Shown: positions 61,584 to 64,000 of the stretch, in pieces
Layout: every line of letters starts with the position of its first letter
Position numbering within the stretch: the stretch's first letter is position 1
Notes under the pieces: generated by a model
The model's database searches: none
Seen by the model: the letters and a program-made list of their open reading frames with translations, nothing else
What the model was told of the DNA's origin: nothing
Assembly (NCBI GenBank): GCA_016703765.1
Contig: JADJBL010000022.1
Location: 1 to 64,000 of the forward strand
Direction of reading: 5' to 3'
Length of the DNA stretch: 64,000 nt
Source: Saprospirales bacterium
Lineage (GTDB): Bacteria; Bacteroidota; Bacteroidia; Chitinophagales; Saprospiraceae
Translations under genes and position numbers: made by a program

Positions 61584-62393
61584 ATGGCCGATAAAATACA
61601 TACTGAAACCCTTCGCCCCGACCTATCCTTCCGGCTTTTGCTGGTGGAATCCGGCTCCTTCCGCCTCGGCGGCTCCGGCCCGGAGGTGCATTTATCTCCT
61701 TTTTACCTGGGCGAGCATCCCCTCACCCAGGACATTTGGGAGGAAATAATGGGGGCGAACCCCTCCTGGTTTAAAGGCAATAGACGGCCGGTGGAAAACG
61801 TGAGTTGGTTTGACGCAGCCGTTTTTTGCAACGCGCTGAACGAGCGGTGTGGCTACGACCCCTGCTATTTCAGCGATCGGGATTTTAAGTCCCTCTATGG
61901 GAAAACTTCGGAGGGTTTTTCTTTGCCAAATGAAGGCGAAGTTTACCGTAAGGTAGGCGCCAAGGGCTACCGCCTGCCGACGGAGGCGGAGTGGGAGTAC
62001 GCAGCCCGGGGCGGAAAAGACCCGGATAAGCGCCCAAGCTATGAATATTCCGGAGGGGAAAAGCTGGATGAATTGGGGTGGTATGGTGTTAACAGCCACG
62101 GCGAAACCAAGCCGGTAGGCCTGAAGCTGCCCAACGAATTGGGGCTGTACGACATGAGCGGCAATGTGTGGGAATGGTGCGAAGATTGGTATGCGGAATA
62201 TCCATCTGGCGTTTTGACCGATCCGCGTGGACCTGAACAGGGGACTCACCGCGTGCTCCGCGGCGGCTCCTACTCCGCTGAGATCTCCTACTCCGCTGAG
62301 AGCTGCCGCTCCGCGCTCCGCGTCCGCTGGCTACCGTGGGACCGCCTCACCTATGTCGGCTTCCGCCTCGCCTTGTTTTTCCCTCCAGTTTAG
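61584..62393 (+). CDS. Formylglycine-generating-enzyme-like (SUMF1/FGE-sulfatase) protein with DGR-like variable C-terminus
   Basis: 269 aa from the ATG at 61584 (MADKIHTETLRPDLSFRLLL). The FGE-type C-lectin fold is recognisable: HPLTQDIWEEIMGANPSWFK, RPVENVSWFDAAVFCNALNE, YRLPTEAEWEYAARGG and DMSGNVWEWCEDWYAEYP. The last about 40 residues (RVLRGGS to GFRLA) align with the variable region of diversity-generating retroelement target proteins. Oxidase cysteines of true FGE are not evident. No signal peptide. No reverse transcriptase or template repeat was found in the window. Confidence 0.75.
   Translation: MADKIHTETLRPDLSFRLLLVESGSFRLGGSGPEVHLSPFYLGEHPLTQDIWEEIMGANPSWFKGNRRPVENVSWFDAAVFCNALNERCGYDPCYFSDRDFKSLYGKTSEGFSLPNEGEVYRKVGAKGYRLPTEAEWEYAARGGKDPDKRPSYEYSGGEKLDELGWYGVNSHGETKPVGLKLPNELGLYDMSGNVWEWCEDWYAEYPSGVLTDPRGPEQGTHRVLRGGSYSAEISYSAESCRSALRVRWLPWDRLTYVGFRLALFFPPV
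62246..62375 (+). other. Putative DGR-type variable region
   Basis: Codons for RGGS through GFRLA. In 37 consecutive codons from GGC GGC TCC to CTC GCC, no AAN codon occurs and 27 end in C. This is the pattern left when AAC codons of a template are mutated at adenine. An 18-bp duplication (CTCCTACTCCGCTGAG, twice) lies inside it. Natural FGE sequence drift is the alternative. Confidence 0.5.
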
Positions 62394-62433
62394 GTGGTCT
62401 GATCATCCGGCAATCCTGTGAGCGGAAAGAGGG

Positions 62434-62535
62434 CTGGACCACAGATTTCCACTGATTTTATGATTGCGCTGATTTTTTGAGGGACACTCCAGAAGAAATC
62501 AGTGAAATCATAAAATCAGGGTAATCTGTGGTCAG
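62434..62535. repeat. Long inverted repeat of TGATTT words
   Basis: The left arm (62434-62475, with ACCACAGATTTCCACTGATT and TATGATTGCGCTGATTT) and right arm (62495-62535, with AATCAGTGAAATCATAAAAT) are complementary with a few mismatches. It follows the FGE-like gene and is built of degenerate TGATTT units. Could terminate transcription of that gene. Confidence 0.55.
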
Positions 62536-62610
62536 GCGTTTTCTTTCCGGGATTACGGAAGGTTTGTATTTTTGTCGACAGAAATTCTTTCCATTCCCAA
62601 TACCCTGCCC

Positions 62611-64000
62611 ATGCGCTTCTTCAGCTCCTTTTCCTTCCTCCTCCTCCTCTCCACCCCCCTCCTCGCCCAGCAACCTGGAAACTACCCGACGTTCGAAGAG
62701 ATGCTGACCGAGTTTTTCAGCCGCTATGACGTGTCCGAACCGGCCAATAACCACGTCGTCTTCGAACGCAGACCCAATGGGTATTTCGCGGTGGTCGTGG
62801 AATGGGACTTCTCGCGCGGGAAAAGGGAATTGTTTTACCGCTTTTCCAACAACACCTATGCCGAACTGAAATTGTTCACTAGGGGCGACGGAGAAAATGC
62901 GGCGGAGAAGGCGCAACAATATTTGAAGGCCAATTCCTTCGATGCCGGGCAGTTTTCCATGCTGCCCTACTTCGGCTATCCCGGCTGGTATAAGGATGTG
63001 ATCGCGCTGTACGAAAAAAAGGACTCCCTGAGCGACTGGGAACTCAACGCCCTGGCCCGCTCATACCAGAATGCCAGGTTAAGCCTTCTGCAGAACATTT
63101 CCGGCTATTCCGACCCGGCCGATCAGTTCGACCTGCCGCCCGGCCGGCACGCCATGACCCGAACGCAGGTGGATCAATACATGGACCTGGCAAAAAAAGG
63201 CCTCCACGCCTACGACCGCCTCCGCAAACAGAACCCGGACTTCATGACCCCCGTCGGGCCAGTCACAACCAAGTACTCCAACGAGGTGATGGATGTTTTT
63301 GTGCAGCTCCTCTTTCATCAGGACGAATCTACCGCCCGCCGGATCCTCGAGCCCGGCCTTTACGACCCCTACCTGCTAAGCTCCGCCTCCAACCTGCTAA
63401 AATCCTGTCCGCCCGATGCGGTGCTTTTCGTCTGGGGCGACACCGACACCTACCCGCTCTACTACCTCCAGGCCATGGAAAACCTGCGCACCGACGTGAT
63501 CCTGGTCAACCTCTCCCTGGCCGCCGTTCCACGCTATTTGTCGATGGTCTATTCGGGCCCGATGACGGCCAAGCCGCTTAAAACCGCCCTGCCCGAGCTG
63601 TATTTCCAGGAATTGATCATGTGGCAAAAAGACCTGAACGCCGAAAAAAGCGACCTGCCCGTAGGCATCGAAACGTTTTATTCTCAACTGCCCGATACCA
63701 GCCTGTACACTGCGGGCTTTAAAAACCAATACCGCGTTTTTTCTTTTTTGCCGGACGTCATTGCCCTGTCAGCCCCGGGCGATTCCTTATACCCAGGCAT
63801 GAACATAAGCTGGCAAGTGGAATGGGTTGTCGACGGAAATTATCTTTTCCCCGAAAAAACCGCCCAGCTCGACCTGATCTATGCCAATAATTGGTCCCGG
63901 CCGCTCTGCTTCGCACTTACCTGCCGTCCGGACGCCTGGGCGGCCTGGAATCCCCACATGGCCTTGGAAGGACTGGTGTACCGCCTGTACCCCCAAAGCC
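62611..64000 (+). CDS. Secreted protein with DUF2723-like C-terminal module (partial)
   Basis: Open from ATG at 62611 to the right edge, at least 463 aa. A signal peptide (MRFFSSFSFLLLLSTPLLAQ) is followed by a domain without clear motifs. Then comes VLFVWGDTDTYPLYYLQAME and LRTDVILVNLSLAAVPRYLS, and later ALEGLVYRLYP. These match the soluble C-terminal part of DUF2723 membrane proteins, where the segment is NGDNDTFPLWYLQE. Here no membrane helices precede it. The 3' end is outside the window. Confidence 0.7.
   Translation, partial: MRFFSSFSFLLLLSTPLLAQQPGNYPTFEEMLTEFFSRYDVSEPANNHVVFERRPNGYFAVVVEWDFSRGKRELFYRFSNNTYAELKLFTRGDGENAAEKAQQYLKANSFDAGQFSMLPYFGYPGWYKDVIALYEKKDSLSDWELNALARSYQNARLSLLQNISGYSDPADQFDLPPGRHAMTRTQVDQYMDLAKKGLHAYDRLRKQNPDFMTPVGPVTTKYSNEVMDVFVQLLFHQDESTARRILEPGLYDPYLLSSASNLLKSCPPDAVLFVWGDTDTYPLYYLQAMENLRTDVILVNLSLAAVPRYLSMVYSGPMTAKPLKTALPELYFQELIMWQKDLNAEKSDLPVGIETFYSQLPDTSLYTAGFKNQYRVFSFLPDVIALSAPGDSLYPGMNISWQVEWVVDGNYLFPEKTAQLDLIYANNWSRPLCFALTCRPDAWAAWNPHMALEGLVYRLYPQS

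Follow-up and report, generated by a model that had tools for sequence, protein, structure and literature searches.

The gene and its candidate variable region

The 64,000-nucleotide stretch analysed here (positions 1 to 64,000 of contig JADJBL010000022.1 of a Saprospirales bacterium, hereafter the window) encodes near its 3' end, at 61584..62393 on the + strand, a protein of 269 amino acids of the FGE-sulfatase family with a predicted TvpA-like C-type-lectin fold. Its reading frame is intact. A stretch of 40 codons near its 3' end (62250..62369, + strand, RVLRGGS...GFRL) resembles the variable region (VR) of a target of a diversity-generating retroelement (DGR), as its identity pattern against the template repeats (TRs) of other genomes shows. 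An initial annotation of the DNA had given the gene coordinates and the C-terminus, RVLRGGS...GFRLA, correctly.

Pfam PF03781 (FGE-sulfatase) matches the protein with an E-value of 5e-42. Among solved proteins, the closest by sequence is variable protein 1 of Treponema denticola (TvpA, 2y3c; E 4e-43), followed at a distance by CarF (3e-22) and by formylglycine-generating enzymes (3e-21 or worse). An AlphaFold2 model of the protein reached a mean pLDDT of 90.9, its lowest block (residues 231-240, mean 62) lying within the duplicated part described below, and 2y3c was also the top Foldseek match of this model (TMq 0.86). The Pfam match and the agreement of both searches on 2y3c bear out the C-lectin-fold FGE protein of the initial annotation, and the modelled fold is the C-type-lectin fold of known DGR variable proteins. 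Formylglycine-generating enzymes have their two active-site cysteines in the C-terminal GGS segment; in the alignments the window protein has no cysteine at either position. The titles of PDB entries for C336S and C341S mutants among the Foldseek matches agree with an active-site role. Two homologues, P0002 (71% identical) and P0008 (62%), carry the name Saprospiraceae.

The composition of the gene changes towards its end. The initial annotation had counted no AAN codon and 27 codons ending in C among 37; the former holds, while a recount of the latter gave 26. Within the VR as delimited here, 29 of 40 codons end in C versus 72 of the 222 preceding ones (p about 1e-5, slightly conservative since it was calculated with 28 of 40 instead of the actual 29). 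AAN codons number 0 of 40 in the VR and 20 of 222 before it, which alone is a weak signal (p = 0.05). The rest of the gene had been described as more A-rich, and indeed the A fraction is 8.7% over 46 codons versus 22.5% over the remaining 218; among the 120-nt stretches of the window, 0.15% are as poor in A on the + strand. Composition by itself would leave the identity of the VR undecided; sequence comparison with relatives settles it.

Inside the VR lies an 18-bp tandem duplication (62268..62303, + strand), also noticed previously, whose copies at 62268-62285 and 62286-62303 are identical at 17 of 18 positions. The metagenome protein P0001, 98% identical to the window protein, has it likewise, so the duplication predates the split of the two strains. 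P0001 differs from the window protein at six residues, four of which fall in the 43-residue end (Fisher p = 0.007): R to H, A to T, D to A and Y to H. Judged at codon level from the protein, each of these four VR differences is compatible with a template A.

When the window protein was aligned with 120 listed of 7989 matching homologues, the highly variable C-terminal columns coincided with the places of Asn in the TRs of relatives, and the residues R, V, RGG, C, R, R, P, R and GFR were nearly fixed. Mean column entropy was only slightly higher in the VR (1.75 bits) than in the body (1.62 bits). Since columns outside the VR vary strongly too, it is the pattern and not the amount of variability that speaks for a VR. 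Two of the homologues, P0004 and P0011, have clearly different bodies and identical C-termini from RGGSW to the end; a VR shared via recombination, a common source or an assembly chimera are possible reasons.

Templates and targets in related genomes

Homologues were sought in 298 genomes from the order and 398 from the family. The two best-scoring ones, on contig C70 of genome G237 (58% identical) and contig C51 of G571 (56%), are by their sequences DGR targets with matching TRs. In G237, the TR (RVQRGGSWINNAQNCRSSNRNNNAPTNRNNNVGFRL) lies about 3 kb from the target gene on the same 4.6-kb contig, on which no reverse transcriptase (RT) was found, and each of the 19 mismatches between TR and VR falls on a template A. 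This TR also fits the VR of a target on contig C137 (14 of 14 mismatches at template A), and because one TR fits targets on two contigs, trans action is indicated for G237. Five of the six VR-like genes compared in this genome fit one of its four TRs with zero non-A mismatches. Between the TR and the target on C70 (locus L195, 1123-4210) lies an open frame of 924 codons, which looks like a leucine-rich-repeat GTPase.

G571 contains one TR beside an RT and three targets, with 14 of 15, 15 of 15 and 19 of 20 mismatches at A. The third of these is the 56% relative itself, 3.8 kb past the TR. The gene preceding the RT has an HRDC domain. The initial annotation had expected an Avd-type partner; in the relatives, the accessory protein carries an HRDC domain instead, so Avd is not the partner to expect. 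Related targets are found either on a different contig from the TR or 3-4 kb away from it: the sequences indicate that the relatives diversify homologous genes nearby and at some distance, and they appear to do so in trans too. In another genome, G189, contig C1 carries nine long RT frames with near-equal scores of 126-130 bits (L167, L171, L175, L179, L182-L186), which we take to be, perhaps, group II intron copies.

We then compared the window VR with foreign TRs, leaving a gap for four extra codons. Against the TR of G318, identity was 82% at non-A and 23% at A positions; for the other 13 TRs (14 of 15 listed) it was 62-79% and 17-23%, respectively. Of the 12 Asn codons in the G571 TR, 11 have their third base kept in the window VR, compared with 5 of the 24 first and second bases. 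As controls, ten confirmed VRs were compared with the best TR from another genome, which gave 79-87% at non-A and 29-54% at A positions, the sister cassettes G237 and G305 reaching 100% at non-A positions. The 82% of the window lies within the range of confirmed VRs. The window region shows the pattern of a VR, with third bases of template Asn codons kept, the first two free and non-A positions conserved.

The 3' flank and its complementarity to template flanks

Near its end the gene has a sequence resembling an initiation of mutagenic homing element (IMH; GGCTTCCGCCT...CCAG, 62358..62388, + strand). In relatives this part is shared between VR and TR, as seen when 15 VR ends, that of the window among them, were aligned with 4 TR ends. 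Past the stop codon, the window reads CCAGTTTAG...TCCGGCAATCCTGTGAGC, much like the VR flanks of G237, G305 and G571, whereas the TR flanks of G237 and G571 read CCAGCTCACAGG... and are unlike it. The gene end shared with TRs thus leads into a flank of the VR type, distinct from the one that TRs have. Part of this flank is an 18-nt element, here called X (TCCGGCAATCCTGTGAGC, 62406..62423, + strand), which the flank alignment and the complementarity in relatives led us to propose as a docking site. It starts 17 nt past the end of homology; in 28 HRDC-type loci this distance is mostly 10-21 nt. The view that the region is the VR of a DGR outside the window, put forward in the initial annotation, is strongly supported by the two best homologues being targets with mismatches at A, by the asymmetry against foreign TRs and by this VR-type flank.

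In HRDC-type relatives, the VR-side element and the stretch immediately 3' of the own TR are reverse complements of each other. We scored complementarity with +1 for a match and -1.5 for a mismatch. In a first set of 23 pairs from 19 loci, the mean was 13.9, while 496 swapped pairs averaged 7.3 and shuffles 6.3, and 18 of the 23 pairs scored at least 11, one of which (L045) is a palindrome in the shared end and hence a different feature. The 19 loci were drawn from 33 with repeat pairs: L122, L180, L191, L192, L193, L199, L200, L201 and L212 were dropped as the same places as used loci (L201 held one additional pair, 10/10, that was left unused), and L004, L008, L113 (same place as L004), L127 and L194 were dropped, by our own judgement, for overlapping or low-complexity repeats. 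The spirochaete locus L004, excluded in this way, may hold a real pair. A second set from 30 RT loci gave 23 pairs in 21 new loci after exclusion of repeats of earlier cassettes (L254, L257, L258, L280), with no pair in L260, L268, L270, L273 and L277. Here 17 pairs scored at least 11, a level reached by 8 of 502 pairs after swapping and by 1 of 690 after shuffling; one of the 17 (L265) is a match away from the TR junction.

For the 28 loci with an HRDC gene, each represented by one pair whose VR side came only from sequence beyond the TR/VR homology, the mean was 15.5 versus 6.9 after permutation, and none of 20,000 permutations was as high. The score was at least 11 in 26 of the 28, and for 26 of the 28 the own TR ranked first of all. 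The 28 loci are not all independent: L190 and L207 are sister cassettes with the same TR translation, and L173 and L279 are alike at X. X differs between genomes yet matches the own TR (TCCGGCTTTACTTATGAGC, GGCTGTCCGGTGAGC, TCCGGCCTTATGCATGGACTG and others). Remote targets carry it as well, the one on G237 C137 scoring 13.5 against its TR and the third G571 target 15.5.

Other loci count against X as a docking site. Two HRDC-type loci, L266 (8) and L274 (4.5), are without the feature and a third, L272, is weak (11). Five loci without a detected HRDC gene and two of unassigned HRDC status that were grouped with them (L015, L040) score 4-5, but L131 scores 14.5 and L265 13 though HRDC was not found in the stretch examined; L195 (11) and L002 (12.5) are likewise of unassigned HRDC status. 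In other lineages, four of seven RT loci gave pairs, L283 (HRDC match present), L284, L285 and L287, and none has the complement both at the junction and near the VR. The longest perfect cis stem in 37 loci was 6 bp, reached in four of them. Loci that lack the complement also show no stems like those of Bordetella phage BPP-1 within 48 nt, so the absence of a hairpin is by itself no defining mark of the clade.

The window flank scored 15 against the 28 foreign TR flanks, a value that no other 45-nt stretch reached among 3195 sampled from both strands of the window at 40-nt intervals (maximum 14.5). The TR flank predicted from X, searched as a pattern with one mismatch allowed, matched one of the 398 family genomes, G337, in two places, and had 0 exact matches in IMG/VR. 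Both G337 matches proved to be X, read from the opposite strand. They follow two FGE genes (about 40% identical) whose ends are VR-like, and no RT was detected on the 11-kb contig that carries them. The tag alone thus led to two further likely targets, not to the TR of the window.

A cis inverted repeat of the BPP-1 type, with a GC-rich stem of 7-10 bp, was not found in the first 45 nt of the window flank, where the longest perfect stem is 4 bp. Further downstream of the target gene lies an inverted repeat at 62437-62533. Its 39-bp arms, 62437-62475 and 62496-62533, agree at about 90%, and its ends read ACCACAGATT on both strands. We set it aside as a BPP-1-type hairpin; it starts 48 nt past the VR, and by eye nothing like it stands at that place in the aligned flanks of relatives. 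It is perhaps a dispersed element.

The next open reading frame (62572-64000) is still open at the window end and had no Pfam match at E 0.001. All 20 related genomes searched have a homologue of it (the best two 52% and 42% identical). Beside these two, the 8.4 and 12 kb examined yielded no homologue of the FGE gene, the upstream gene or the MocA gene. A tblastn search found no further FGE gene in the window. Close FGE relatives were absent from phage records (19 records, all below 60% identity) and from IMG/VR (32 loci, best 46%), and 359 of 360 plasmid records were below 60%, the best listed at 43.5%. The DNA of the region gave weak matches in 11 of the 398 family genomes (best E 4e-7).

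Interpretation and comparison with known systems

Taken together, we consider it highly probable from these sequences that the gene is an orphan (remote) DGR target with its VR at 62250-62369. The best explanation for the type of DGR is the HRDC-accessory kind seen in related Saprospirales-like genomes; by analogy with the targets there, the window copy probably is or was rewritten in the same manner, and presumably in trans. Several observations weigh against this. Within the 64-kb window, we found no TR-like partner (sliding comparison tolerating mismatches at A), no RT (tblastn, best match E 0.066) and no HRDC accessory gene. The VR-like gene on G237 C121, one of six, fits none of the four TRs found in that genome, so a VR-like gene end does not always come with a TR at hand. 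The 23% identity at template A lies below the 29-54% of the ten confirmed VRs. The VR has four extra codons and the internal duplication, which P0001 has too. Finally, independently rewritten VRs that stem from a single TR, or from similar TRs of sister genomes, are 8-13 residues apart; the four VR residues at which P0001 differs are fewer than rewriting would give. Because the duplication is shared and the VR differences are only four, full rewriting since the strains parted is unlikely, and the sequences point to rewriting that was partial or absent in that time. Likewise, since the duplication occurs in both strains and its copies are still identical at 17 of 18 positions, it is unlikely to lie in a TR undergoing mutagenesis.

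These observations feed the main rival, which we regard as a real if lesser possibility: a fossil VR in an ancestral DGR target, whose rewriting ended in this lineage and which has since changed by ordinary mutational drift. The near-identity of the duplication copies, the presence of the duplication in P0001, the few differences to P0001, the fact that one of them hits the otherwise nearly fixed R of RGG, and the negative searches for TR, RT and HRDC gene in the window would all suit it. However, X and the VR-type flank have been kept although non-coding, the reading frame and the predicted fold are intact, and all four VR differences are compatible with a template A, as far as codons can be deduced from the protein. 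That the protein is instead an ordinary FGE-family enzyme with a biased C-terminus, unconnected with any DGR, seems highly improbable despite its FGE-sulfatase match in Pfam, given that neither active-site position is Cys, that TvpA fits far better than the enzymes by sequence and by fold, and that both the VR pattern and the VR-type flank are present. As to the complementarity, it could serve pairing inside or between transcripts, in RNA regulation or stability, and not the choice of targets. Target, accessory gene, RT and TR are often on one strand, as in G571, and could share a transcript. But X is also present at targets that lie apart from the cassette or on a separate contig (the third G571 target, G237 C137), and the two X-tagged genes of G337 are on a contig without a detected RT, and we consider a role in transcripts rather unlikely.

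If the gene is a remote target, a TR/RT unit past the window end or at some other site of the genome would make cDNA with errors at A, and this cDNA would replace the VR at 62250-62369, altering surface loops of the TvpA-like protein. The TR of this unit is predicted to end GGCTTCCGCCT...CCAG and to be followed directly by GCTCACAGGATTGCCGGA, as deduced from X. We give an even chance to the docking of TR-adjacent RNA at X (62406-62423): RNA next to the TR would pair with the target sense strand at X and thereby mark the recipient. Priming of the BPP-1 cDNA starts from the RNA that follows the TR, and the two stay joined (PMC12875486). If the same holds here, pairing at X would dock the RNA-cDNA hybrid colinearly at the VR end; extrapolating from BPP-1, the X-complementary RNA and the cDNA would both anneal to the sense strand of the target, with matching order and orientation, X ahead of the VR. 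The TR would be spared as a recipient, as it carries the complement of X and not X, and X would make FGE genes across the genome, the window orphan included, recipients in trans. For the whole clade of chromosomal DGRs with HRDC genes and FGE targets, we see the case as evenly balanced that targets are chosen by RNA guidance, with X (11-21 nt) as an address tag that replaces the BPP-1 hairpin.

How DGRs find their targets yet spare their own template is only partly understood. A covarying complement of TR flank and target flank would be a simple, testable recognition rule for a chromosomal clade. Remote targets could be found by the tag alone, as with G337, and the tag suggests a way of aiming such a DGR at a chosen gene of a laboratory strain.

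Much of the setting is already in print: FGE-type targets and several VRs per TR (PMC3521204, PMC6642488), HRDC accessories (PMC4891356) and remote targets (PMC10907252), and Haliscomenobacter has been named as a DGR host (PMC3521204). New here, on the sequence comparisons above, is X past the VR as a covarying reverse complement of the own TR flank. Our searches of the open literature (preprints excluded) brought up no such complement, nor did passages of PMC3240598, PMC12875486, PMC4372165, PMC8867640 and PMC8144416, and it may be known elsewhere. Unlike the HRDC-type relatives, the FGE-sulfatase-target DGRs of PMC3521204 and PMC6642488 come with no mention of it in the parts accessible. Thiohalocapsa PB-PSB1 likewise has C-type-lectin-type targets, with FGE domains in the targets of DGR 6, and the remote targets of its DGRs 4 and 5 fit the TR of DGR 2 (PMC10907252). 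Its FGE targets carry STAND NTPase and effector-associated domains (PMC10907252), unlike the window protein, where the FGE-type domain makes up all 269 residues.

The DGR of Treponema denticola has TvpA-type targets, the closest solved protein to that of the window, and an HRDC-domain accessory gene as in the related cassettes here (PMC4891356). Its accessory gene lies between TR and RT (PMC4891356), while in the related cassettes the TR mostly follows the RT, and the gene of the window stands alone. The Treponema pair L285 also has no TR-flank complement at the junction, unlike the HRDC-type relatives. Just past its VR (705-831) stands a long inverted repeat (AAAATCGCC...GGCGATTTT) that resembles the BPP-1 hairpin.

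In BPP-1, target recognition involves an IMH difference together with a cis hairpin (PMC3240598, PMC12875486, PMC4891356). Our script, run on BPP-1 as a control, found the known 8-bp cis stem, and its best TR-flank match there was 9 nt and off the junction. As with the probable VR and the putative recognition element of the window, the VR of BPP-1 lies at the 3' end of a C-type-lectin-fold gene, with the recognition element just past the VR (PMC3240598). But BPP-1 requires a cis inverted repeat whose stem sequence is variable (PMC3240598), whereas the window, with its 4-bp stem, carries a flank that matches the TR flank of its relatives.
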